Shown here: positions 556 through 31,287 of the stretch, piece by piece
Position numbering within the stretch: position 1 is the stretch's first letter
Layout: each line of letters opens with the position of its first letter
Source: Stappia sp. 28M-7
Lineage (GTDB): Bacteria > Pseudomonadota > Alphaproteobacteria > Rhizobiales > Stappiaceae
Assembly (NCBI RefSeq): GCF_014252955.1
Contig: NZ_JACMIA010000001.1
Span: 1 to 64,000, forward strand
DNA length: 64,000 bases
Reading direction: 5' to 3'
Program-made: the position numbers and the translations under genes
The notes under the pieces: model-generated
What the model was told of the DNA's origin: nothing
Databases searched by the model: none
Seen by the model: only the letters and a program-made list of their open reading frames with translations

Positions 556-2730
556 TTAGCCCCGCCGTGCCACACAGGCGAACCTGCGGGCTCCCAGCTT
601 CTTGGCGACCGCTTTCCTGCCGCAGATGCACCTGCTGCCGCGAACCGTGCCGCCCTGGCAGACCACGTTCTGCCTTCTGGGGGCAGGGTTCACCCGGGAC
701 GGCGGTCTGGTTTTCGTTTTCGCCCGCGGATCGGTGCGCACGGCCTGCTTCTTCTGACAGGCGAAGGCGGCCTTCCCGATTTTCACAAGGTTGCGGTTGG
801 GCCCGCAGCGGCACTTTCCGTTGGCGACCCTGCCGCCCCTGCAGACGATCTCGACCCTTCTGGGGGTGGGGTTGGTCCGGGCAGGCCGCCTCGGTTCGGG
901 CGGCTTGGCGACCGCAATGCACTGATAGGACGCGTTTCCGGTCTTCCTGCGGATCTTGTTCTGGCCGCACTGGCAGGTGCCCCTGGCGATCCGGCCACCG
1001 ACGCAGACGAGCCGTGGCTGCGGCGGCGTCGGGTTGGTGCGGGCCGGCGCCGGCGCCTTGTCGGGAGCCTTAGGGGGCGCGTGCGTGGGATTGGGGTCCG
1101 CAGTCAGGACGCCGACACCACCGCCAACGGCGGGGTTCACCCGGGGGTCGGGCTTGGGGAGGTCGTGACCAGGGTCCCTCCGGCTGCCGGTCAGGTCGCC
1201 GATGCCGCTGCTGTGCCCGGCGGCTTTCGCGCATTGGAAGGTACGGGCCGTGAAGGCATGGTCGAGCGGGTCTCCGGGCGACACCGTCCGCAGCGTGCAA
1301 CCGGCCTCGATCGTGTCGGTAATGTCGAAATTGATCAGCGTTGCGGCGCGATAATGGCTGCTGGCCACCTGCTCGGGCTGGAGAACGCCTGAGAAGTTGC
1401 CGAGCGCCCCGCAGTCCAGCGAGTAATGGATGTTGTCCGCCTTGGGCGCGTCGAACCAGACCAGCGCCTTCGCATCGCGCGGGCACGTGTAGCTCTGCGC
1501 GAGCGGGCCGTTGTCGACAAACTGAAAATTGCCCTGGAACGAGGTTATCTTCGGCGTGTCGTCGTCGTCGTCGGTGCCGCTCGGCGATGCCAGTCCGCCG
1601 CCGCCCGCCCCGGTGCAGTGCAGGGTGATGTCTTTCCAGCCGGTCTCCTGGTTGAAGGTCTCGTTGACGAGATCGCGCGCGTTGAACTGGACGCTCGTCG
1701 TCCCGTCGACCTCGACCCAGCGCTCATGAACAGCCCTGAAATACCCGCCGTCGTGTTGGGCCTGTGCGTCGATGTCCTCGCTCGCAATGGCGCCGTCGCC
1801 GCGCTGTTCCCACAGCCTGAAGGACACCGGGCCTTCCTGGTTTGTCTCCATGGTCACCCGCAGCTTGGCCTTCTTGCAGCGGGTGCCGGGTGTCGGCTCG
1901 GTATAGGCGTTGGAGTAGGTGGTCAGCGTCAGGCGGATGTCGTTGACCGTCATCGGGCCCTGGTCGAAGGCGAGATCCTGGTTGTCCGGCGTATTGGGTG
2001 TATCGGTGCCGCTCGTCCTTGGAATGCCGCCGGTATCGCTCGGCGGCTTGGAATCGGGGACGGGGGGCTTCGAATTCTGGCCGAGGCACTCGATCTTGAG
2101 GCCGACGAAGCCGAAGGCGGTGGCCCGGCCGAAGTCGCCATAGCCCTCGTATTCGTTCAGATAATAGGGAAAGCGTTTGCGACGCTTTTCCCTGGCATCG
2201 GCATGTATGGCCAGCGGCAGCGGGTAGCTGAAGCTGTGCCCTTGCTCGGTTTCGGTCCAATTGGCATTGCAGCGATTGACGATCGCCTGCTCGTCGGTTT
2301 GGTTTAGCCTCGTGAATTCGTCGATGAGGATGTTCGCCGGGCCGGAAACCGATGTTCTGGAGTCGATGATGGCTTCTATGGGGTTTGGCTGGTTGCCGTG
2401 GGGTGTCTTGATGTATGTCGAGAAGACATCGCGAACTGCTCCATTGGTCAGATTGCGTCCGATGCGATAGAACTCGATATAGCCGCGTGACATCTCGATG
2501 GTGACATGGATGGGGATCGTTCGCGGATGGTCGCTGATCCGGGTCCACATGCCGTTTTCTTGTTCGACGAGGATCGTCTCCACATTGAAACCACCGCTGA
2601 TCTCGATGTTGTTGAATCGAGGCGCCGCCGCCGCTGCTGGCGTCGCCAGCACGCCTGCAGCGCACAGGAACAGTGCCGCGGGCGACATCCTCCGGAGCAA
2701 ACTTGAGGTCAACGGGCTTTCAGCAGACAT
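556..2730 (-). CDS. Secreted protein with three C-terminal cysteine-rich modules, function unknown
   Basis: A 724-residue exported protein of unknown function. The start at 2730 is chosen over an upstream in-frame one because a GAGGA ribosome site lies just before it and because it exposes a normal signal peptide: basic residues, a hydrophobic stretch, then an Ala-rich cleavage region near residue 36. The middle holds two beta-rich segments with paired cysteines and an Asp run (DDDDD). The last ~150 residues are three copies of a ~35-residue module of form C-x-GG-x(5)-G-x-C-x-CG-x(10)-G-x(4)-C, joined by Pro/Arg-rich linkers. It lies downstream of an AraC gene on the same strand and carries the leader element also found before the autotransporter. 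Surface or periplasmic binding is a guess; no catalytic motif is seen. Confidence 0.7.
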   Translation of the reverse strand: MSAESPLTSSLLRRMSPAALFLCAAGVLATPAAAAAPRFNNIEISGGFNVETILVEQENGMWTRISDHPRTIPIHVTIEMSRGYIEFYRIGRNLTNGAVRDVFSTYIKTPHGNQPNPIEAIIDSRTSVSGPANILIDEFTRLNQTDEQAIVNRCNANWTETEQGHSFSYPLPLAIHADAREKRRKRFPYYLNEYEGYGDFGRATAFGFVGLKIECLGQNSKPPVPDSKPPSDTGGIPRTSGTDTPNTPDNQDLAFDQGPMTVNDIRLTLTTYSNAYTEPTPGTRCKKAKLRVTMETNQEGPVSFRLWEQRGDGAIASEDIDAQAQHDGGYFRAVHERWVEVDGTTSVQFNARDLVNETFNQETGWKDITLHCTGAGGGGLASPSGTDDDDDTPKITSFQGNFQFVDNGPLAQSYTCPRDAKALVWFDAPKADNIHYSLDCGALGNFSGVLQPEQVASSHYRAATLINFDITDTIEAGCTLRTVSPGDPLDHAFTARTFQCAKAAGHSSGIGDLTGSRRDPGHDLPKPDPRVNPAVGGGVGVLTADPNPTHAPPKAPDKAPAPARTNPTPPQPRLVCVGGRIARGTCQCGQNKIRRKTGNASYQCIAVAKPPEPRRPARTNPTPRRVEIVCRGGRVANGKCRCGPNRNLVKIGKAAFACQKKQAVRTDPRAKTKTRPPSRVNPAPRRQNVVCQGGTVRGSRCICGRKAVAKKLGARRFACVARRG
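559..1014 (-). repeat. Three tandem Cys-rich modules (protein repeat)
   Basis: Within the secreted protein, modules start near residues 573, 627 and 688. Each has four cysteines in the order C-GG-C-CG-C and a conserved K-x-G before the last Cys. Linkers of 19-26 residues are rich in Pro, Arg and Thr (RTNPTP twice). The final module ends the protein. Confidence 0.8.
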
Positions 2731-2760
2731 AGGCTCGTCCTCGCTATCCAGCGTTGCTGC

Positions 2761-2819
2761 GCGAGGATATTGCGTTGCGAATGCCCGGGCTTGGGGGATG
2801 CGGCAAGGGTGAGAGCCGC
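2761..2819 (-). promoter_or_regulatory. Leader element, copy A (secreted-protein gene)
   Basis: This sequence, starting 30 bases upstream of the secreted-protein start codon, matches 7292-7349 upstream of the autotransporter at roughly 46 of 58 positions. Fully conserved blocks on the sense strand are CGGCTCTC, CCCCAAGC and TATCCTCGC, in the same order and spacing. It fills most of the 100-base gap after the AraC stop codon. It may be a promoter, operator or structured 5' leader; the sequence alone does not decide which. Confidence 0.6.
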
Positions 2820-2830
2820 ACCGCGCACTG

Positions 2831-3817
2831 TCAGGTGGGTGGAGCCACCGGTCTGGATCTGCGCACATCCGACGGCGTCATCTTGTAGCGACGGCGGAAG
2901 GCCTGATTGAACCACGACAGATCGCCGAAGCCGGACTGATAGGCGATGGCGGTGATGCTGTGGTGGTTGAGGCGAGGATCGCAAAGCAGTTCGTGGGCTC
3001 GCTCCAGCCTTGCCGCAAGGACGTAGTCCGTGAAATTCGCGCTGGACGCGTAGAACAGGTTGCGAATGGCGCGCGGCGAGAAGCCGTGCCGGGCGGCAAT
3101 CCACTCCAGCGAGAGATCGGGATGGGAGAGATTTGCCCAGATGTCGTCCTTGATGCGGGCGAGCCGTGCCGCCCGCGCGCTGTCCTTGGTTGCCTCGATG
3201 GCATCCCGGGTGGGGTCGACGGCCAGAATGAACAGGTCTGTCAGCGTTTTCCTGGCCTGGAGGAGCACCTCGCCGTCGAGCGGCCCGATATCGCTGGCGA
3301 GCGTCCTCGCATAGCCGCACAGGAGGTCGAGCGCGGCAGACTGCGGCACGCCGTGATCGAGCGCATGGTCGAGATCGCCGACGGCCGCGGCAATATGTGC
3401 GCGCGAGACGCAAATGACCTGGCTATGGCTCGTCAGCGACCAGGCGCTGTATCTCTCGTCGTTGCCCCTGAGATGCGCCGGCCCTCCCGGCCCCACGGTA
3501 ACTTCATCGCGTCCATGGCGGCGGTCGTGCAGCCGCATCTGGATCGGGTGTCCCCCGCGATGGACCAGCAGGCACAGGTCGTCGTTTCCGTCGAGTGCGA
3601 CATGGTTTTTCTGGCGCATGTTCGACATGCCGGACATCGTCTGGAAGCTGGCATAGGCGTTCGGCATGATGCGGAGCGAAAAGTCGAACGCCATTCGCTC
3701 GTCTTCATGGCGATCCATGAAAAAGCTGATGCTCGGCTCGAGAGCTTCCAGCAGCTTGGCTATTTCGCACGGGCCAGCTTCCGTGAATGACAGTCGATGA
3801 AAGTTGCCTTCGGTCAA
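2831..3817 (-). CDS. AraC-family transcriptional regulator
   Basis: A 328-residue DNA-binding regulator. The last ~100 residues form the two helix-turn-helix motifs of AraC/XylS proteins, including the typical SGFGDLSWFNQAFRR stretch before the end; the N-terminal ~200 residues are a divergent effector-binding domain. The start is a TTG preceded by GGAG at good spacing. It lies upstream of, and on the same strand as, the secreted-protein gene, so that gene is a plausible target. It resembles the AraC protein at 30313-31287 in architecture and in the C-terminal signature. The effector is unknown. Confidence 0.85.
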   Translation of the reverse strand: MTEGNFHRLSFTEAGPCEIAKLLEALEPSISFFMDRHEDERMAFDFSLRIMPNAYASFQTMSGMSNMRQKNHVALDGNDDLCLLVHRGGHPIQMRLHDRRHGRDEVTVGPGGPAHLRGNDERYSAWSLTSHSQVICVSRAHIAAAVGDLDHALDHGVPQSAALDLLCGYARTLASDIGPLDGEVLLQARKTLTDLFILAVDPTRDAIEATKDSARAARLARIKDDIWANLSHPDLSLEWIAARHGFSPRAIRNLFYASSANFTDYVLAARLERAHELLCDPRLNHHSITAIAYQSGFGDLSWFNQAFRRRYKMTPSDVRRSRPVAPPT

Positions 3818-4120
3818 ATCCGCTCACTCCATTTAGAGTGCTGCCATGCTGACATGGCTGTCACCAGACGAGACGAACCGAGTGAACCGGCGGAGCATGG
3901 CCGCTGTCGGCAGAAATGAGGGCGATTTTGTCGCCTCATGCGTGCCGCGCGGTGCATGCTTCCCCCTTGCGTATCCAGGAGCGTGCACAGGGTAACGCAG
4001 GGGCATCCATCGGGGCAATGCTCGCATGAGTTGCCGGGGCGCGCGGTCGTGCGGCCCCGTAACGTCGCTCAGCAGGAGTGGGAAGATCATCGCCTGCCGT
4101 TCGGGCAAGGACACCTGCGA
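3818..4120. other. Intergenic region upstream of the AraC gene
   Basis: About 300 bases with no convincing gene; a 93-codon minus-strand frame here has no recognisable product. It holds the AraC promoter side and, at 4035-4059, a 6-bp CGGGGC/GCCCCG stem that could help end transcription of the autotransporter gene, although no T run follows it. Confidence 0.4.
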
Positions 4121-7100
4121 TCAGAAGCGTATGTTCAGCTTGAGGCTGGCCGTGTGATCCTGAAGCCCGGAGCCGAGGAGCGCCCCGTAGGCAAGGCCCA
4201 TTGTGGTGTTCTGCGTGAGGTTCACATCCAGGCCCGTGTCGAACACGAACGTGTCCTGCGCCAGCGGAACGCCCGCGATGACGAAGGGAGCGCCGCCCGA
4301 AGCGAAGGCGAACTGCGATGTCGGGGTGCTGCCGAACGCATGCCGCCAGCCCACCGTGCCGCGCAAGGTTGCCTGCGTCCCGCCCAGGCTGACATCGGTC
4401 TCCGCGCGAAGGCCGACCGTGGTGAAGGTCGCATCGACAGCGCTTGAGGCGGCGGTCAGGGCTGCTGCGCCACCGCTTTCGGTGAACCCGTCGGTAGACA
4501 GATGCACATAGGCGAGATTGGCGAAGGGCTCGAAGCGGGCCGCGCCTGCCTCGAAACGATAGCTCGCCTCGCCCCAGGCTTGCAGGGTTCGCGCGCTGTA
4601 GGATGCGCTGAGACTGTCCGTGAATCCGGTGAAGGCTACCGAGCGGGACGTGTCGAGCTGGTGCCAGCTATGGGCAAGACCGCCGGTCAGCGCGAAGGCA
4701 TTCCATTCGCCGCCGCCATACAGTCCGAGCGTGTAGGTATCGGCCGTTCCAGAGGAGGACCGGTCGTCGACGCTGAAGCTCGACCGGGAATAGCCGCCCA
4801 GCACGCCGAGGCGCACACCGTCCCAGACCTGCGCGTCGCCGCCCATCAGGAAGCCGCCGATAGTGCGGTCCATTGTGGCTGCATTCCCGTCGCCGTCCCA
4901 CTGGCTCCAGGAGCCGAAGCCCTGTCCCCAAAGACCGAAACTCTCGGAGATGCGATCCTCGATCCGGGTGTTCCTGCCGGAGCCGACGCCGCCGCGCGCT
5001 GAACGCAGGCGGCCCATCGCCGCTTCGCGCGGGAAGCGGCTGTCCTCGAGGAGCGCGGTATGCGCGGAGGCATGCACCTCGCCCGAAAGCAGGTCGAGGG
5101 CGATGGGGGCCTCCGCGACGGCCAGTGCCAGGACGGCGTTGAACACGCTGTTTCCCGCACCGAGCGAGTAGGCGCCGCTTCCGGCCGCGCATTGATTGGC
5201 GGTCATGCCGGCGAGGCAGAAGCTGGTTGCTGCCGCCGAGGTCAGATAGACGTTGCTTGGGTCGTAGGAGAGCGTGAAACCGAGGAAGGCGTAGGTGTCG
5301 GTGACGGCATCGAAAGCGCCGCTGACGCCGGCACCCGTCGTAAGGATGGTGTAGGTGCCCGGCAGGTAGGTCGAGCCGTCGTCGGTACCGTTCTCAGGCG
5401 TGACATGAACCGTGCCGCCATTGATGGTTGCCGTCCCGGTGACATTGAGCACGTCGTTGTTGAGGCCGGCAACGAAGCCGGCATCGTCGAGTTCGATCGC
5501 GAAGACCGATCCTGTATCGAAACTGGCGGAGGCGGCGGTCATCACGCCGATGGAGTTGCCCGGAGCCAGGGTGCCGCCGGAATTGACGGTGACGGCGCCT
5601 GCCGTGCCATCGCCGCCGAAGGTGCCCCCGGTGACCAGCACGTCGCCGACCAGGCCCATGTTGCGCAGCGTCCCGCTGGAGACGGTGGTGCCTCCCGAAT
5701 AGCTGTTGATGCCGCGCAGGGTCGTCATGCCGGAGCCGATGTGGTTGACCGCGGCGGAGCCGGTGATGGCGACGTTCGCGCCCGCCACCGTGCCGTCACT
5801 GGTGAAGTAATAGTCGGCATCGCTGTGATTGAAATTGATCACCGCCGTGCCGGCCCCGCCATCGACCGTGATGGCGTCGACCACGCCCGCTGCGCCGCCC
5901 GTCCCGATATTGAGCGTGCCGGTGGTGGGAACGACATTGGCCAGCGTCAGTTGGCCGGAGCCGACCACGATACGCCCGCCATTGGAGAGATTGAGCGTGC
6001 CGTCGCCCTGCCATCCGACATAGTTTGCGCCGGTGGTGGTCCAGCTGGAGCCGGTCCCGTCGATCGTCACCGTGCCGACGCCGCCCGCCGCTGCGGCGAC
6101 ATAGCCTGCCGAGCTGCCTACCGAGCCGCCGCCCGAGATCTCCAGCGTGCCGACGCCGCGATTGCCGACACGCAGATTGCTGGAGTTGTTCCACGTTGCG
6201 CCGTTGACGGTGACGGTCCCGACGCCGTCGCTCTCGGAGCCGATCGAGGCCACGGTGCTGTTGACCGTGCCGCCGTTGGCGACGTGCACTGCGCCGGTGC
6301 CGGACTCGCCGACAACCAGGGTGGCGCTGCTCCAGACGGATCCCAGGTCGTTCACAGTGACCGTGCCGCTGCTCGTGGCGGCGCTCCCGACATTCGCATT
6401 GCCATTGGTGACCGCGCCGAGCCCGGAAATATCCAGCCTGCCGGTGCCATCGTTGCCGACATCGAGCGTGTTGGCGATGGTCCAGGTCCCGCGATCCACC
6501 GTCACGGTGCCGACGCTGCCGTCTGAAACCCCGATCACGCCGGTGTTGCTGCTGACCGTGCCCTGATTGGTGACGTTCAGGGAGCCCTGCCCCTGATCGC
6601 CGACATAGAGACTGGCCGAATTCGTCCAGGTGGACCCCGCGCCGTTGACATTCACGTGGCCGATGCTGCCCGCGATGTCGCCGATGCGCGCCGAGCTGTT
6701 GCTCACATCGCCGGTGTTCGTGATGTTCAGCGTGGCTTCGCCGCGGCCTCCGACGATCAAGCCTGCGGCATTGACCCAGGCCGCGTTCGCGCCGTTCACG
6801 TTGACGACGCCCTCGCTGCCGACCGTGTCGGCCATATAGGCCGATCCGTTCTGCACCACGGCGCCATTGGTGATGTTCAGGTTGCCCGCGCCGGCGCTTC
6901 CGACATACAGAGCGGCATTCTGAAGGTCCCAGGTCGAGCCCAGGTCATCGACCGTTACGGTGCCGGTGCCGCCATTGCCGATTCGCCCGACGTCGCTGCC
7001 GACGTCGCCGCCATTGGTGATGGTCAATGTGCCGGAGCCGACCTGGCCGACCGTGAGAGCCGCGCCGATGTTCCACGGATCGGGCTGCGTTCCGCCGCCC

Positions 7101-7264
7101 CCGCCGATGACGGTTTCGCTCGCGCCGCCTTCGATGACCTGCTGCGCATGGACCGGATGGCTGACGAGTACGCTCAAAGTCGTCGAGCTCAGCAGTGCTC
7201 CGAGAGCTGTTCCCAGGAGCTTTCCGCTTGCGTTGACAAATGAACTTCCACCGATCATCGGCAT
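4121..7264 (-). CDS. Type V autotransporter with beta-barrel domain
   Basis: A 1047-residue self-secreting surface protein. A long signal sequence ends near residue 40 (HPVHAQQ). The passenger begins with about seven ~50-residue Gly/Thr/Asn-rich repeats (residues ~75-420), followed by the passenger-associated segment around SGGTTVSSGTL and NSGGTLAPGNSIG, which normally guides beta-helix folding. The last ~270 residues are an outer-membrane beta-barrel ending in phenylalanine, as expected for Bam-dependent insertion. Two start codons two residues apart are possible: ATG at 7264 or ATG at 7258. The AGGGG ribosome site fits 7258 better (9-base spacing). No protease triad is seen in the passenger, so adhesion or biofilm roles are inference. 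The leader element at 7292-7349 precedes it. Confidence 0.92.
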   Translation of the reverse strand: MPMIGGSSFVNASGKLLGTALGALLSSTTLSVLVSHPVHAQQVIEGGASETVIGGGGGTQPDPWNIGAALTVGQVGSGTLTITNGGDVGSDVGRIGNGGTGTVTVDDLGSTWDLQNAALYVGSAGAGNLNITNGAVVQNGSAYMADTVGSEGVVNVNGANAAWVNAAGLIVGGRGEATLNITNTGDVSNSSARIGDIAGSIGHVNVNGAGSTWTNSASLYVGDQGQGSLNVTNQGTVSSNTGVIGVSDGSVGTVTVDRGTWTIANTLDVGNDGTGRLDISGLGAVTNGNANVGSAATSSGTVTVNDLGSVWSSATLVVGESGTGAVHVANGGTVNSTVASIGSESDGVGTVTVNGATWNNSSNLRVGNRGVGTLEISGGGSVGSSAGYVAAAAGGVGTVTIDGTGSSWTTTGANYVGWQGDGTLNLSNGGRIVVGSGQLTLANVVPTTGTLNIGTGGAAGVVDAITVDGGAGTAVINFNHSDADYYFTSDGTVAGANVAITGSAAVNHIGSGMTTLRGINSYSGGTTVSSGTLRNMGLVGDVLVTGGTFGGDGTAGAVTVNSGGTLAPGNSIGVMTAASASFDTGSVFAIELDDAGFVAGLNNDVLNVTGTATINGGTVHVTPENGTDDGSTYLPGTYTILTTGAGVSGAFDAVTDTYAFLGFTLSYDPSNVYLTSAAATSFCLAGMTANQCAAGSGAYSLGAGNSVFNAVLALAVAEAPIALDLLSGEVHASAHTALLEDSRFPREAAMGRLRSARGGVGSGRNTRIEDRISESFGLWGQGFGSWSQWDGDGNAATMDRTIGGFLMGGDAQVWDGVRLGVLGGYSRSSFSVDDRSSSGTADTYTLGLYGGGEWNAFALTGGLAHSWHQLDTSRSVAFTGFTDSLSASYSARTLQAWGEASYRFEAGAARFEPFANLAYVHLSTDGFTESGGAAALTAASSAVDATFTTVGLRAETDVSLGGTQATLRGTVGWRHAFGSTPTSQFAFASGGAPFVIAGVPLAQDTFVFDTGLDVNLTQNTTMGLAYGALLGSGLQDHTASLKLNIRF
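6007..7042 (-). repeat. Seven ~50-residue passenger repeats
   Basis: Each unit follows the pattern G-x-L-x-I-x-N-G-G ... I-G ... G-T-V-T-V-x-G-x-G-S-x-W ... L-x-V-G-x-x-G. Units are 48-50 residues and clearly diverged, so the array is old rather than a recent expansion. Repeats of this type are expected to build successive turns of a right-handed beta-helix. Confidence 0.8.
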
Positions 7265-7291
7265 TTACCCCTGGCATCTTGCTCTGCGGCG

Positions 7292-7349
7292 CGAGGATAA
7301 GTGCATCGCGAAGGCGGGTGCTTGGGGAATCAGGCAGGGGCGAGAGCCG
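7292..7349 (-). promoter_or_regulatory. Leader element, copy B (autotransporter gene)
   Basis: Second copy of the element at 2761-2819, beginning 27 bases upstream of the autotransporter start. The CGGCTCTC, CCCCAAGC and TATCCTCGC blocks are identical in the two copies, with a single one-base length difference between them. Confidence 0.6.
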
Positions 7350-7450
7350 TTTTCGGGGTGGCAGACGTTATTTCGGTGCCGAAGTGCGTGAGCTCGGAGC
7401 CGGCTTCGTCCTTCGCCAATGACCCGTGTGCTCTGCTCGCCGGGAGCTCT

Positions 7451-7478
7451 GGCCGGGCGGGATTTTCCCCGCCCGGCC
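7451..7478 (-). terminator. Strong stem-loop after the acetyltransferase gene
   Basis: GGCCGGGCGGG (7451-7461) pairs with CCCGCCCGGCC (7468-7478) around a short ATTTTC-type loop, only five bases beyond the acetyltransferase stop codon. There is no T run on the minus strand, so it may work as a 3' end stabiliser or an atypical terminator. Confidence 0.5.
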
Positions 7479-7483
7479 GTCCG

Positions 7484-7936
7484 CTAGCCGATCAGCCAAA
7501 GGCGGGCGTTTTCGAACGCGTTCCCGTCGTCGTCGACGGGGCGGCGGGAAATCTCCTGGAACCCCAGGCGCTTGTAGAAGGCCATCGCCTGCCGGTTACC
7601 GGTGTAGACCTCAAGCGTCAGCTCGCCCTTGAGCGTCAGGGCGTGGGCAATCAGCTGACGTCCAAGCCCGGCCCCTTGCCGGTCGGGCGACACGAAAATG
7701 GCGCCGACAAACGTACCGAGCAGGCTGATGAAGCCGCAGGGATCACCGCCCATGCAGGCGACCCAGGTCTCGGATTGCGGGAGATATCGGTCTTCGATAA
7801 GCGCTTTTTGCTCGCGCAAGCGCTGCTCCCCGACAAAGGGATGGGCCAGCAGCGAGGCTTCGAGCCAGATGTGCGACAGCTTTTTCGTATCCGTGGCCGG
7901 GTCATAGGGCCGGATGACGGCGTCATGGGTTTTCAT
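7484..7936 (-). CDS. GNAT-family N-acetyltransferase
   Basis: A 150-residue acetyl-CoA-dependent transferase. Residues ~70-115 contain the acetyl-CoA loop (VSPDRQGAGLGRQLI, a Q/R-x-x-G-x-G/A type motif), and the C-terminal half has the common GNAT strand LEVYTGNRQAMAFYKRLGF with its conserved Asn, Ala and Tyr. GGAG lies six bases before the ATG. The substrate cannot be read from the sequence; small-molecule or protein amino groups are both possible. A strong hairpin follows the stop codon. Confidence 0.9.
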   Translation of the reverse strand: MKTHDAVIRPYDPATDTKKLSHIWLEASLLAHPFVGEQRLREQKALIEDRYLPQSETWVACMGGDPCGFISLLGTFVGAIFVSPDRQGAGLGRQLIAHALTLKGELTLEVYTGNRQAMAFYKRLGFQEISRRPVDDDGNAFENARLWLIG

Positions 7937-25775: not shown

Positions 25776-28313
25776 TCAGCCCTGCCAGGTCCATCGCATC
25801 CCGGTGCGCGAGGTGCAGGCGCCGCTGCCGCCGCCGCCGAGCGCGGCCATCAACGGGGCCGGAAGCTGGATCGAGAAGTGGCTGACCTCGTGCAGCTCGG
25901 TCTCCGAGACGACGGTCAGTTCCAGGCGCACGTCGACCTGGCCGGTCGGCCCCATCGGCTGGCCGACCAGGGCCGCCTGCCAGGTACCCGGTCCGGTGCG
26001 CGACCAGTCGATCTGCTTTGGCGCCTCGGCCATCAGCGGGCCGGGATGGAACGGATCGGAGAAGGTCATCTCGCGGGTGCCGGAGCGGCGCTCGAACCCG
26101 GCGCCGCGGATCTGCTCGGCGATCATCGCCGGACAGCCCTCCACGGCGGTCTGGCCGACCGTCACCGTCCAGCGGCCGTTGCGCGGCTGGATATCCCCGC
26201 CCCGGCTGGAACCTGTCCCCGCACCTGCGCTTGCACCGGCGCCGGCAGCCGCGCCTGCGCTTGCCGCCGAGGCGGTGCTGCGCGGCACGGCGGAGGGGGC
26301 CGGTGCGGCGCTGGCCGTGGCGATCCGCAGCGAGGAGCGCACCACCTCGAAGGCGCCGAGATAGGCAACGTCCGTGCTGGTCACCCGGCACAGCCCGCCG
26401 GCCGGGGTGTCGGTGCAGGGGCCGCTGGCGGCCATCCACTGGCGCGGGTTCAGCATGATCTGCTGCAGCTCGGTGCCGGCGTTCCGCAACAGGGTGGCGG
26501 AGGGAAGACGGGCCTTCGCCCCTGCGGCGGTCTCGTAGAAGAAAGGTGGCTCGATCTGCCAGCCCTGAGGCAGGATCAGCGCCAGCCCGGTCGCCGGGTC
26601 GTGATAGGCGCAGCCCGACGGGGCCTGGCAGGTCATGCCCTGGCTCTCCTGCGCCAGGGTGCTGCCGCCCGAGGGGCCGGCATCGCCGCGCTGTCCCGGC
26701 GGGTTCTGCTCTGCCTCGCCGCCGCCGACCAGCGGGATGACGAAGTCGTTGGGCTGCCCCGGCACGATCTCGACCACGCCGCGGAACTCGGTCTCGCCCG
26801 GTCCCATTGTCGAGACCTCGTAGCGGCCCGGCTCGAACTCGCCCTCGCCGATCACCATGTCCGTCTGCGGCGCCCAGGCTTCCGGGCTCATGTCGGGATC
26901 GAGCGGCACGGCCGACCAGGACAGCGGCGTCGGCGGGAAGCCGTCCGGCAGGCGGAAGGTGGCGCGCACCATCGGCAGCGCGTCCTGTCCGGGCGCGGCC
27001 TGCGTTGCCGCGAAGGCGCGCTCCGCCAGCTCCGTGCTGGTCGTCAGGTCGGCATCCTCGTAAGGCACCCCGACGCCGAAGGTCCGGGAGAACAGGATCT
27101 CCTTCTGGTTGGCCGACAGGTAGCGCAGCTCGTAAAGGCCGGGTTCGGCCGGAGCCTTCAGGCCCATGCGCCCGTTCTTGCTGAGCGCATAGCCCCAGTC
27201 GCCTTGGTAAGTGCTGGCAGGATCGCCCGGCCGCGCGATGACGATGCGCTGCTGGACCTGGTCCGGACCGCGCCAGGTGAAGGGAAACCGCTTGCCCGGC
27301 TCCACCGAGCCGATGGGGTCGAACCCGTTCGACGCGGCAACCACCTCGACCGGCTGGCGGGCGATGATGCCCTGGCCGGTGACGAAGAGGATCAGGTCGT
27401 AGTCGCCGGGCTCCGCCGGGGCCTGCCTGGTGAACGGGTTATTGCCGGTGTTGCCGCTGCCGCCGATCACACCGAAGGACGGGCTGACATCGGGCTCTGC
27501 CGCACCGCGCCGGGTGAAGCCCGCATAGTCGACGGGCCGCGCCGTGCCCTTGTACGAAATCCGGTAAGTGTGTCCGGCCTCGGCCTTCGGGCCGATGTCG
27601 AAGAACGCCTCCTGAACGGCCGGCTCTGGCTCTGGTTCCGGCATCGGCTCGGCCGCGGCGATCTGGTTGAGCGCGTCGGTGAGCTCGGCGCCGGACTGCG
27701 GGCGCAGCAGCTGCCCGCCGGTCTGGTCGGGCACGCAGGCCAGCGCATCGGCCTCCTGCTCGCTCAGGCCGAAGCCGACCACATGGGCGCGGATCTTGAT
27801 GCCTTCCTGCGCCAGCTGGGCGGCGACCGCGCAAGGATCGGCTTCGCAGGTCTCCAGCCCGTCGGTGACCAGAATGATGTCGGCCTCCTCGGCCGTCGGC
27901 GGGATCTCGCCGGCCGCGATCCGCAGGCTTTCGGAAATCGGCGTCATGCCGCGCGGGTTGATGCGGTTGAGCCGCTGCGACAGGGCGCGGGCGTCCTGGC
28001 TCCCCGGCCGGGCGATGATCTCGATGTCGGAGCAGTCGCCGCGCCGGTTGTGGCCATAGGCGATGACGCCGAGCGGGATGGACGCATCGCGCGTGGCGAA
28101 GAACTGCCCCATCACGTCGCGCGCCACCTCGATCTTGGTGATGCCGCCGTCGAGCTGGCCCCACATCGAGCCGGAGGCATCGAGAATGAGGATGGCCGCC
28201 TTGCCGGATTGCCCGGGTTGCGATGAAGACGATTGGGCGTTCGCTGCCTGCGTGATGGCAAGCGCACCGAGCGTTGCGGCGGCGAGTGCCGCCCGGATGC
28301 CGGACTGTGTCAT
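25776..28313 (-). CDS. Secreted von Willebrand factor A-domain protein
   Basis: An 845-residue exported protein. The signal peptide ends after ANA (residue ~26). A VWA domain follows at ~38-220 with an intact metal site: Asp45, Ser47, Ser49 (DASGS), a Thr/Met loop NPRGMTPISES, and VTDGLET. Several beta-sandwich segments with a repeated APAEPG(D/L)Y motif follow, then an Ala/Ser/Gly-rich linker near residue 700 and a C-terminal domain with paired Cys. GGAGGAAG marks the start at 28313. Such proteins bind ligands at the metal site outside the cytoplasm; the partner is unknown. It follows two other envelope genes on the same strand and ends in a hairpin-rich gap. Confidence 0.88.
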   Translation of the reverse strand: MTQSGIRAALAAATLGALAITQAANAQSSSSQPGQSGKAAILILDASGSMWGQLDGGITKIEVARDVMGQFFATRDASIPLGVIAYGHNRRGDCSDIEIIARPGSQDARALSQRLNRINPRGMTPISESLRIAAGEIPPTAEEADIILVTDGLETCEADPCAVAAQLAQEGIKIRAHVVGFGLSEQEADALACVPDQTGGQLLRPQSGAELTDALNQIAAAEPMPEPEPEPAVQEAFFDIGPKAEAGHTYRISYKGTARPVDYAGFTRRGAAEPDVSPSFGVIGGSGNTGNNPFTRQAPAEPGDYDLILFVTGQGIIARQPVEVVAASNGFDPIGSVEPGKRFPFTWRGPDQVQQRIVIARPGDPASTYQGDWGYALSKNGRMGLKAPAEPGLYELRYLSANQKEILFSRTFGVGVPYEDADLTTSTELAERAFAATQAAPGQDALPMVRATFRLPDGFPPTPLSWSAVPLDPDMSPEAWAPQTDMVIGEGEFEPGRYEVSTMGPGETEFRGVVEIVPGQPNDFVIPLVGGGEAEQNPPGQRGDAGPSGGSTLAQESQGMTCQAPSGCAYHDPATGLALILPQGWQIEPPFFYETAAGAKARLPSATLLRNAGTELQQIMLNPRQWMAASGPCTDTPAGGLCRVTSTDVAYLGAFEVVRSSLRIATASAAPAPSAVPRSTASAASAGAAAGAGASAGAGTGSSRGGDIQPRNGRWTVTVGQTAVEGCPAMIAEQIRGAGFERRSGTREMTFSDPFHPGPLMAEAPKQIDWSRTGPGTWQAALVGQPMGPTGQVDVRLELTVVSETELHEVSHFSIQLPAPLMAALGGGGSGACTSRTGMRWTWQG

Positions 28314-28336
28314 GATCTTCCTCCTCATGGGGCCGC

Positions 28337-29023
28337 TCAGTCGCGGGCGAGCCTCAGGGCCGGACGCAGCACGTTCTCGGCGCGCGGGATGGCGATGCGG
28401 GCCGAAAAGGGTACGGCCTCGTCGGTGGGCAGCTGCCGATAGCTGCCCTCGACGGTGACCGATCCGTCGACGAGAAGCCCGTCGCGCAGGTCGAAGGAGA
28501 CAGAGCCGCCGTCCACCGTGCCGGTGGCCAGGGTGACGGGCACGTCCGCATCGTTGCGCTGCACCAGCTTGAAGACGCCGAGGAAGGCGCCGTCGGGCGC
28601 ACCGGCCATCCCCGCCTCGCCGACGATGGCGCCGGATGTGGCGTCGCTGTCGCCGAGGCGGACCAGCACCATGCACAGCATGGTCAGGGCCGGCGCGTCG
28701 TCGAACACCATGCCCTGGACGCCGACGACGAGGCCGCCGCCTGCATCCGTGCCGTAGAGCCCGCCGCCCGCAAAGCCGGCAGCGAGCCCGCCGGAAATCT
28801 CGCCCCTGGTGACCGGAGCGTCCGGCTTGGTCTCCACAAAGGTGCGGAACTGCGAGATGTCGAAGCCGGGCGGCGGCATTTCGCAGGCAGCCGGCCCGAG
28901 CGTGTCGAACACGAAGTCGGCTTGCGGTGCGACCTGGGGGGCGGGCTGTGCCTGGGCGGCGGTCGCCGCAAGCAGGGCGAGGGCTGCGATGCCGCCGCAG
29001 GCAAGACGTGATCTGGAAATCAT
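28337..29023 (-). CDS. Secreted protein of unknown function
   Basis: A 228-residue protein with a clear signal peptide (cut near residue 26, AQAQ). The mature part is one domain rich in Gly, Asp and Val, with Cys pairs near residues 47 and 115. No family is recognised. It lies 23 bases upstream of the VWA gene on the same strand and is probably co-transcribed, so the two exported proteins may act together. GAAGGA precedes the ATG at 29023. Confidence 0.75.
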   Translation of the reverse strand: MISRSRLACGGIAALALLAATAAQAQPAPQVAPQADFVFDTLGPAACEMPPPGFDISQFRTFVETKPDAPVTRGEISGGLAAGFAGGGLYGTDAGGGLVVGVQGMVFDDAPALTMLCMVLVRLGDSDATSGAIVGEAGMAGAPDGAFLGVFKLVQRNDADVPVTLATGTVDGGSVSFDLRDGLLVDGSVTVEGSYRQLPTDEAVPFSARIAIPRAENVLRPALRLARD

Positions 29024-29063
29024 TTCATGGATCCTTCGGGTGGGATGGTGCGCCCCCGTTTGC

Positions 29064-29131
29064 GGTCCGGTTCCGACAGTTGCGTCCCTGCTTTGCCAAC
29101 CTAAAAGGCAAATGCCGGCTCCAACCGGACC
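29064..29131 (-). repeat. Nested inverted repeats between two VWA-cluster genes
   Basis: Outer arms GGTCCGGTT (29064-29072) and AACCGGACC (29123-29131) are perfect partners. Inside them TTTGCC (29092-29097) pairs with GGCAAA (29107-29112). The structure fills the gap between the membrane-protein stop (29164) and the next start (29023). It may end or pause transcription after the membrane gene, or regulate the downstream pair. Confidence 0.5.
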
Positions 29132-29163
29132 AAAGCGATGTTCGTATGCGGTAGCTGCCGCGC

Positions 29164-30162
29164 TCAGGCCTGCGGCTGTGCCGGTCCCGGCTCGGCGGGC
29201 GGGGTGGAGGACGGTGCCGGCGACCACAACCCGCTCTTCTGCTTGATGGCGTCGAACTTCTTCGACACCTGCGACAGCTTGGCGTCCCAGGCGGGATCGG
29301 GCGTCTGGCCGGCGGTGACCTTGAAGAAGACCTGCATCATGCAGGCGATGGCGAAGGGCTCGATCAGGGCGGCCTTGACCGCCCAGGCGAAGATCAGCGC
29401 GAAGACGATGCCGCCCGCCGACCACGCGCCGGGGATCAGGTAGACGACCGCCGCGGCCGGGGCGAGCATGACCAGGAACACCAGGAACGACAGGCCGTAG
29501 ACGATGAAGGTGAGCACGGCGGCGTTCTTCATCATCCGCCCGGCATTCTGGCCGTAGAGGACCAGGGCGGTGCGGGCGGAGGCCCAGGGATTGTCGCTGC
29601 GGGTGCGGATCGCATGGGCCAGGATCACCTCGTCGACGAGGCCGATGGCGATGCGCAGGAAGGCGCGCACGAGCCCCATGATCTGCTGGACGCCGGGAAT
29701 GGGCAGGAAGGAGGCGATGCCCTGGATCAGCCCGGTCACGGCGGCGAGCACGCCCTTGACCAGCTGGTCGATGGCGAAAAGCACGCTCGCCTCGGCGAAG
29801 CGGGCGGTCACCACCTGCCGGGCATGGGCGATCTGGCCCTGGCCGTCCGGCATCTGCTTGCCGTCGATGAGCTCGACCAGAACGGCGATGTGCCCGGCCT
29901 TGACCACATAGAGAATGTATTCGCGCAGGAGATAGAGGATGCCGGCCGTCAGGCCGAACCCGGCGACGCCGCCCCACAGGGTCGAGCTGGCGCGGAACTC
30001 CTCGTCACCGAAGCCGCCGATGCCCCAGCCGATGCCGGCGCCCGTGCCGGTGACGATGACATAGGCGCAGGCGATGCCGAAATAGACCACCATCCGCAAG
30101 ACGATGAAGGGCGCGGTCTTCGCCATCAGGCCGAGCGACCGGCCAATACTGAAATCCCACAT
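29164..30162 (-). CDS. Multi-pass inner-membrane protein, function unknown
   Basis: A 332-residue membrane protein with about six hydrophobic segments. Residues ~95-115 are a soluble loop (VELIDGKQMPDGQGQIAHARQVV), and the C-terminal 40 residues are a soluble Pro-rich tail (PAPSSTPPAEPGPAQPQ). No transporter motif is recognised. It is upstream of, and on the same strand as, the secreted 228-residue and VWA proteins, from which it is separated by nested inverted repeats. Joint function in the envelope is inferred from position only. Confidence 0.75.
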   Translation of the reverse strand: MWDFSIGRSLGLMAKTAPFIVLRMVVYFGIACAYVIVTGTGAGIGWGIGGFGDEEFRASSTLWGGVAGFGLTAGILYLLREYILYVVKAGHIAVLVELIDGKQMPDGQGQIAHARQVVTARFAEASVLFAIDQLVKGVLAAVTGLIQGIASFLPIPGVQQIMGLVRAFLRIAIGLVDEVILAHAIRTRSDNPWASARTALVLYGQNAGRMMKNAAVLTFIVYGLSFLVFLVMLAPAAAVVYLIPGAWSAGGIVFALIFAWAVKAALIEPFAIACMMQVFFKVTAGQTPDPAWDAKLSQVSKKFDAIKQKSGLWSPAPSSTPPAEPGPAQPQA

Positions 30163-30312
30163 TCAAGGGTCTCCCGCAGCTGATGTGGTCGTGAATCGCA
30201 GCGCTCGCGTGCCGGGCGCGAAGCGAAGGTAGCCGCTTCGCAGGCCGCGCTCTTGGGGCCGGCGGTAGCGGATGCGGGCCAGGCGGCACAGCACCGGCCG
30301 CCGGCGATGGCC

Positions 30313-31287
30313 TCAATTCGCGGCGAAGGCGGCGGCGAGCGCGGCGGCGCGGACCTCTTTCGGCGTCTGGCCGAAGGCGCGGCGGAAGCTGGCATTGAAC
30401 CAGGACAGGTCGCTGAAGCCGGAGGACAGCGCGATCTCGCTGATGCCGAGCATGCTCTGGGCCGGATCGCACAGGCGCCGATGGGCCAGCAGCAACCGCC
30501 GCTGGGCGACATAGTCGCGAAAGCTCGTTCCTTCGCCGGCAAACAGAGAGCGGATGTAGCGCGGCGAGATGGAATGGCGCGTGGCGATCCACTCGCTGCC
30601 GAGGCGCGGCGAGACGAGGTTCTGCTCGATGTCCGCCTTGATCGCCTTGAGCCGGGCGGCGCGCACGCCGCGCCCCTTGGCGATCTCCTCGGCCTCGCGC
30701 GAGGCGCCCATCGCCATGATCGTCAGGTCGTGGATGTGGCTGGAGCAGGTGGCGACCTCTTCGGCCGGCAGCAGCGCCAGTTCCTCGTGCAGCGAACGGG
30801 CGTAGCGCAGCAGCAGCCGCCATTGCGGCGTCACCGGCTGCACCTCCCGCAGGGCGCCGTTGAGGCTGGTGCCGGCGGAGGCGAGAAAGGCGCGCGGGAT
30901 CGACAGGTAGAAGGCGTCGTTGCGCTCGCCGTGGAACTCGGCCGAGCCCGGCAGCTCGTTGGGGTCGAGATAGACGGAGCCGGGCGTGCACACGACATTG
31001 CTGCCGCCCTGCTGGTACATGGAAAAGCCGCCGGACAGCGGCACATGCACCATGACGTTGTCGCCGGTTTCCGCCGCCAGCGCCTTGGTGCGCACCACGC
31101 CGCAGCGCGAATGCATGGTCTGGCCGGTCATCAGGCCGGGCAGCAGGCCGATGGTCGTGTGCGAGTGGAAGGCGGTGTCGTCGGTCGGGGTGATCTGGAG
31201 CCGGCACATGGAGGCAACGGCGTCCTGGAAGGCTGCCACCCTGACATCCGGATCGAAATCGCTGGCGGAGAGGGTGAGGACCGACAT
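30313..31287 (-). CDS. AraC-family transcriptional regulator
   Basis: A 324-residue regulator with a cupin-like N-terminal effector domain (GLLPGLMTGQTMHSR ... VHVPLSGGFSMYQQGG) and the two-HTH AraC domain in the last ~100 residues (SPRYIRSLFAGEGTSF and SSGFSDLSWFNASFRRAFG). It closely parallels the AraC protein at 2831-3817 in domain plan. Neighbours on the same strand are the VWA cluster downstream and the TRAP operon upstream. A terminator separates it from the TRAP genes, so it is probably its own transcription unit. Target genes are not evident. Confidence 0.9.
   Translation of the reverse strand: MSVLTLSASDFDPDVRVAAFQDAVASMCRLQITPTDDTAFHSHTTIGLLPGLMTGQTMHSRCGVVRTKALAAETGDNVMVHVPLSGGFSMYQQGGSNVVCTPGSVYLDPNELPGSAEFHGERNDAFYLSIPRAFLASAGTSLNGALREVQPVTPQWRLLLRYARSLHEELALLPAEEVATCSSHIHDLTIMAMGASREAEEIAKGRGVRAARLKAIKADIEQNLVSPRLGSEWIATRHSISPRYIRSLFAGEGTSFRDYVAQRRLLLAHRRLCDPAQSMLGISEIALSSGFSDLSWFNASFRRAFGQTPKEVRAAALAAAFAAN

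Follow-up and report, generated by a model that had tools for sequence, protein, structure and literature searches.

The window, i.e. the whole stretch of 64,000 nucleotides of Stappia sp. 28M-7 that was analysed, contains two genes for surface proteins (targets 1 and 2), each preceded by a copy of the same element (A and B, respectively). The gene of an AraC-family regulator, ar1, lies between A and B on the same strand, and was absent from the original prediction for this locus. A second AraC-family gene, ar2, is found further along in the window. The features are as follows.

556–2730, minus strand: target 1, exported protein of 724 residues, downstream of A, no Pfam or NCBIfam hit
2764–2769, minus strand: −10-like box TATCCT of A, 20 bp 3′ of CCCAAG (offset 26 from CCCAAG)
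2790–2805, minus strand: proximal half-site of A, TGCCG-N5-CCCAAG, out-of-sample PWM rank 2 of 127,962
2807–2818, minus strand: distal block of A, CGGCTCTCACCC, probable distal half-site, kept in the three Stappia-type genomes, Aquamicrobium and G401
2831–3817, minus strand: ar1, AraC-family regulator (Pfam HTH_18), putative binder of both elements
4121–7264, minus strand: target 2, autotransporter of 1,047 residues, downstream of B (Pfam Autotransporter beta-domain, E = 1.4e-68; T5SS repeats)
7294–7299, minus strand: −10-like box TATCCT of B, 21 bp 3′ of CCCAAG
7321–7336, minus strand: proximal half-site of B, TGCCT-N5-CCCAAG, out-of-sample PWM rank 3 of 127,962
7338–7349, minus strand: distal block of B, CGGCTCTCGCCC
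30252–30290, minus strand: putative ar2 operator, two direct half-sites 21 bp apart (in 30274–30290 and 30252–30267), PWM rank 1
30313–31287, minus strand: ar2, second AraC-family regulator (HTH_18 and AraC_binding_2), 40% identical to ar1 over the aligned part

By Pfam the two targets are different, unrelated genes, which agrees with the original prediction. The protein encoded by target 1 ends in C-terminal Cys-rich repeats of the CxGG type, which were judged by eye, as were the signal peptides of both targets. Target 1 has orthologues in the genomes G002 and G012 and a homologue in Aquamicrobium (L097:8087-9928), with which it shares an N-terminal stretch of 209 residues that is 65% identical.

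The C-terminal double HTH of ar1 is clearly recognized by the HTH_18 model (E = 3.8e-17, 62.8 bits, with a cut-off of 33.6). For an N-terminal AraC_binding-type domain ar1 gives no Pfam hit; ar2 matches AraC_binding_2, with an E-value of 8.3e-7. The best NCBIfam models for ar1 are those of the rhizobactin regulator RhrA (84 bits) and of FeaR (71.4 bits), yet these scores are far below the curated cut-offs of 500 and 199, respectively, and ar1 is therefore assigned to neither.

Element A spans positions 2760–2818 and element B positions 7290–7349, both on the minus strand and separated by 4.5 kb. The two copies align with 47 of 60 columns identical, one column being a 1-base gap, and the blocks CGGCTCTC, CCCCAAGC and TATCCTCGCG are the same in both. 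The shared element of about 58 bp in the same orientation, with its three identical blocks, is thus real: the local alignment score of A and B is 37, higher than that of any of 4,941 pairs of 110-mers drawn at random from the window, the best of which scored 28. A 30-base pattern comprising the first two blocks, with at most three mismatches allowed, matches twice in the window versus not at all in 100 shuffles. In the complete genome of 5.13 Mb it again matches only A and B (reversed control, 0), so that the check for further copies that had been proposed for this genome yields none at the sensitivity used. With two copies, the element does not have the many copies per genome of a dispersed intergenic repeat. 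The distance of 27–30 bases to the start codons given originally needs a small correction: A ends 29 bp upstream of its ATG (2728–2730), within that range, and B ends 25 bp upstream of its ATG (7262–7264), outside it. The TATCCT boxes are 33 bp (A) and 29 bp (B) away from the start codons. Compared to A, element B has one extra base ahead of TATCCT, and the 1-bp gap needed to align the copies is located 5′ of this box.

Upstream of the proximal half-site, the best score for a distal half-site falls at a spacing of 15 bp in A, and at 13 bp in B as well as in Aquamicrobium and G401. The distal half-site of B scores weakly (2.1), the lowest value among A, B and their orthologues. Since the spacing is 13–15 bp and not 21–22 bp, and the score of B is weak, the role of the distal half-site in A and B is uncertain. 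The spacer between CCCAAG and the −10 box (2771–2780 and 7302–7311, minus strand) is partly conserved in the ar1 branch, with a TCGCnAYGCA-like sequence, and this conservation extends to Aquamicrobium and G401.

Conservation of the element in relatives, which the original prediction proposed to check, is observed in Stappia-type genomes (the present genome, G002 and G012), in Aquamicrobium and in G401. The 30-base pattern is present in 3 of 101 genomes, which are the three Stappia-type genomes with two copies each. They represent 3 of the 14 same-genus genomes in this search, and single genomes elsewhere also carry the element. A search of 61 genomes finds the ar1 orthologue (88–100% identity), the exported protein (92–100%) and the autotransporter (at least 90%) in the same three genomes only; the next ar1 relative among the matches listed is at most 40% identical, and G071 has a single match to the exported protein, short and weak. 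Weaker relatives of the autotransporter are common (30 of the 61 genomes). Downstream of each of the near ar1 orthologues found, in G002, G012, the Aquamicrobium genome L097 and G401, the element is present.

Of the 62 columns of the element, 55 do not vary among the three Stappia-type genomes, for A as well as for B. In the 60 bp directly 5′ of the element the corresponding numbers are 40/60 for A and 24/60 for B, and in the next 60 bp upstream they are 54/60 for A, where this is araC coding sequence, and 40/60 for B. The downstream coding sequences have 48/60 (A side) and 49/60 (B side) invariant columns. Element A is conserved no more than the neighbouring coding DNA, whereas B is clearly above its intergenic flank; judged by these flank and coding controls, conservation argues strongly for B and neither way for A.

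An order-wide scan for the pattern is positive for 7 of 397 genomes, among them G401; three of the seven (G283, G395 and G217) have a single hit with three mismatches; these three hits are taken as chance, because the reversed control matched 2 of the same 397 genomes. Among 151 genomes in the neighbourhood of G401, only G401 itself has the element at two mismatches or fewer. A profile built from the sequences of the six copies alone gives no further convincing copy among the matches listed for 61 genomes, in a search with strict filters and at most 74 candidates scored per genome, from which weak copies could escape. One weak profile hit (G002:C1:3299486-3299539 and G012:C12:293526-293578, E about 1e-3) was rejected as chance, as it falls inside the ORF of a small exported protein in both genomes.

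The motif TGCCG-N5-CCCAAG recurs on the 3′ side of more distant AraC homologues, usually accompanied by a direct repeat upstream. A PWM of 19 columns was derived from 27 sites of other species, leaving out the sites of the Stappia-type (same-genus) genomes, of the ar1 orthologues and of L098. When applied to both strands of the window (127,962 positions), it ranks the ar2 operator first, A second and B third. The rank of B is the strongest point of this test, because B is not located behind an araC stop codon. In a set of 43 homologues (44 minus L096, a duplicate of L038), 37 have a site with a score of at least 8 within 130 nt of the stop codon; in 100 shuffled sets this number averages 0.81 and never exceeds 4. 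Including L100 and L109, with sites at 164 and 182 nt from the stop codon, the total becomes 39 of 43. As 27 of the 43 served to train the PWM, the fair figure is that for the homologues outside the training set, i.e., 12 of 16.

The positions of the −10-like box, TAnnnT, lie outside the PWM. Counted from the first C of CCCAAG, the box begins at offset 26 in 28 of the 37 homologues and at offset 27 in three; elsewhere in offsets 10–59 it occurs twice. Of the 24 rows that extend far enough, 23 have the distal direct repeat at 21 or 22 bp upstream; L098, with 13 bp, is the exception. The motif, its fixed geometry, its position behind homologous araC genes and its travel with the regulator are directly apparent from the sequences. 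Behind the 39 sites, the genes encode an MWDFS-type membrane protein (21), a VWA protein (10), a CxGG exported protein (4), an autotransporter (2), an OmpA-like protein (1) and an unclassified protein (1), where the classes were assigned by motif and the exported and autotransporter rows were labelled by hand. A regulon cannot be delimited from the half-site alone: the loose pattern TDCCKNNNNNCCCAAGM has 8 matches in the genome, three of them being the window sites, versus 9 in the control, and a broader regulon based on it was rejected.

Several further arrangements were observed in the course of these comparisons. In the window, positions 25776–31287 (minus strand) comprise ar2, its own site, an MWDFS membrane protein without a Pfam family and an exported VWA protein, and an arrangement like that of ar2 recurs behind many of the homologues examined. 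The same order of araC, operator and VWA gene, with a 22-bp spacing, is present in Balneatrix alpica (L103), which we take to be outside the Alphaproteobacteria; a transfer across classes is possible. More distant AraC genes also lie a few kb or less from autotransporter genes (G001:C28, G001:C26, G013:C1, G014:C90, G015:C2, G010:C1 and G006:C35), and control of autotransporters by a nearby AraC gene may be common in this family.

The presence of the site correlates with the second HTH helix of the regulator. This helix has the sequence DLSWFN in all 39 homologues with a site, versus SYF at that place in all four without one. Among 27 further loci, retrieved by a protein search with ar2, all ten with DLSWFN have a site within 300 nt, with TA at offset 26 or 27, although only three of them (L151, L153 and L157) are new, the other seven being genomes or sites already represented. 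Of the 17 loci with other helices one reaches the threshold (L160, DLSYFN, score 11.5), and L170, with DISWFN, has no site. The first homologue scan was queried with the peptide FGDLSWFN, by which the association is partly built in; for this reason, and because the residues track relatedness, the link between DLSWFN and the site is a clade-level correlation. The two loci with DLSYFN in place of DLSWFN, L160 and L158, show weaker similar sites, scoring 11.5 and 6.5, in which the offset of TA is unchanged; this may reflect a sister site code.

Taken together, the shared element is very probably an activator-dependent promoter, consisting of a binding site for ar1 (2831–3817) and a −10 box. We infer that ar1 binds the element, that it activates rather than represses, and where transcription starts. 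In the proposed mechanism, ar1 would bind the proximal half-site TGCCK-N5-CCCAAG, which would stand in for a −35 box, and would also contact the less certain distal half-site CGGCTCTCRCCC. The bound regulator could then recruit sigma-70 RNA polymerase to TATCCT, 20–21 bp downstream, with transcription starting about 25 nt ahead of each start codon. Because the element precedes both surface genes, ar1 alone would turn on the pair, and the two surface proteins would be expected to rise together. Such an architecture combines two of the three options of the original prediction, which had listed a promoter, a regulator site or an mRNA structure: a regulator site at the −35 place followed by a −10-like TATCCT supports the first two jointly, and the third is poorly supported.

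Two class II features can be compared with this scheme. The proximal site is located at the −35 position with a fixed distance to the −10 box, as observed for 31 of the 37 homologues and for A and B (20 and 21 bp). A second direct-repeat half-site about 21–22 bp upstream is absent from A and B, which have spacings of 15 and 13 bp. Such a second half-site is not strictly required, since a single site suffices for AggR of enteroaggregative E. coli (PMC6392122).

The same operator could also be used for repression, in which case ar1 would occlude the promoter until it is released by a ligand. The site does occupy the −35 place, from which repression is possible. However, a canonical sigma-70 promoter, with a TTGACA-like −35 box 16–18 bp before the −10 box, does not occur in positions 2600–7600, and the promoter should therefore need an activator; this is a weak argument, because shuffled sequences are expected to contain just 0.5 such promoters in 5 kb. 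In addition, the geometry is close to that of AggR-activated promoters, whose site is located 21–22 bp before the −10 box (PMC6392122). Repression is accordingly considered unlikely.

A structured mRNA leader or attenuator that coordinates both genes is far less probable still. A partly conserved helix can be drawn, with 96.2% of the cells paired (5 of 500 shuffles are as high) and a covariation score matched by 21 of 500 shuffles; two of the 13 predicted pairs show a two-sided change, and every slid version of the structure is lower on both measures. These values derive, however, from just six sequences of three related genomes, and the structure was obtained from the same alignment. Moreover, no Rfam family matches at gathering scores, the folding z-scores are −1.35 and +0.43, and the conserved blocks are located upstream of the putative transcription start.

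The two conserved boxes about 20 bp apart could in principle form a promoter for an alternative (ECF-type) sigma factor, with CCCCAAGC as the −35 and TATCCTCGC as the −10 element. This is highly improbable, as the boxes follow an AraC gene across families, their spacing is 1 bp longer in B than in A, and the direct repeat 21–22 bp upstream in the homologues resembles the dimeric sites of AraC-family regulators. A non-functional remnant of a recent duplication or of a dispersed mobile repeat, which two similar copies at a distance of 4.5 kb might suggest, can hardly be reconciled with only two copies in 5.13 Mb, with 55/62 invariant element columns versus 24/60 just upstream of B in three genomes, and with the presence of the element behind the regulator in two other lineages.

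The element accompanies ar1, while the gene behind it varies between lineages. In an Aquamicrobium MAG (L097), a relative of ar1 with 76% identity is followed by the element, starting 12 bp past the stop codon, and then by the homologue of the exported protein. This genome contains a single copy of the element and no match to the autotransporter, in a search run without a positive control. In G401, which belongs to another family, the element lies between a regulator 68% identical to ar1 and, downstream, a homologue of the autotransporter (72%); the exported protein has no match within 16 kb around this locus. The −10 boxes are TATTCC in Aquamicrobium and TATCCC in G401, and not TAnnnT. In the regulator tree the Stappia-type, Aquamicrobium and G401 sequences are grouped with full support (100/100); the placement of L098 is unsure.

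This distribution suggests that the regulator and its switch spread horizontally as a unit. In the Stappia lineage, the switch may have reached the second gene by copying, or two units may have fused with the loss of one araC gene. A broader scenario is conceivable, although it falls somewhat short of being probable. It would involve a proteobacterial, mostly alphaproteobacterial, clade of AraC proteins with an operator fixed behind their own stop codon. Regulator and switch would travel from genome to genome as one cassette, which would acquire varying envelope genes (autotransporter, CxGG exported protein, VWA protein or MWDFS membrane protein). Within the ar1 branch, the distance between the half-sites would have changed to about 13 bp, implying a different dimer geometry, and the switch would have been copied to a second, unrelated surface gene, leaving one regulator for both.

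An unexplained repeat becomes a testable regulator-site pair, which would place two surface proteins of Stappia-type bacteria under joint control. The accompanying sequence rule, i.e., a regulator with a DLSWFN helix, TGCCG-N5-CCCAAG soon after its stop codon and a −10 box at a fixed offset, predicts a direct target for many AraC regulators. The natural exchange of targets behind one switch also provides a clean case for how local regulons assemble.

The proposed mechanism belongs to a known kind, the AraC-family class II promoter; for the ar1 regulator-site pair itself, no description was found among the open-licence PMC papers listed. AggR promoters of enteroaggregative E. coli have one activator site 21–22 bp before the −10 box, which is said to overlap the −35 region with a proposed contact to sigma domain 4, and AggR controls surface fimbriae (PMC6392122). 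The distance is closely similar at the present locus, where CCCAAG ends 20–21 bp before TATCCT. In contrast, the AggR site is A/T-rich and ends in TATC, unlike TGCCG-N5-CCCAAG. A second comparison is offered by MtlR, a regulator of the AraC/XylS type, at the PmtlE promoter of Pseudomonas fluorescens, which has two direct-repeat blocks of 15 bp at −72 to −58 and −50 to −36 (PMC4514859). This amounts to a spacing of 22 bp, like that of the ar2-type operators, whereas the half-sites of the ar1-type elements are only 13–15 bp apart. The MtlR binding site is, however, described there as being upstream of the −35 region, and motif and target are different (PMC4514859). The least ordinary points of the ar1 elements are the short spacing of the half-sites and the exchange of target genes.
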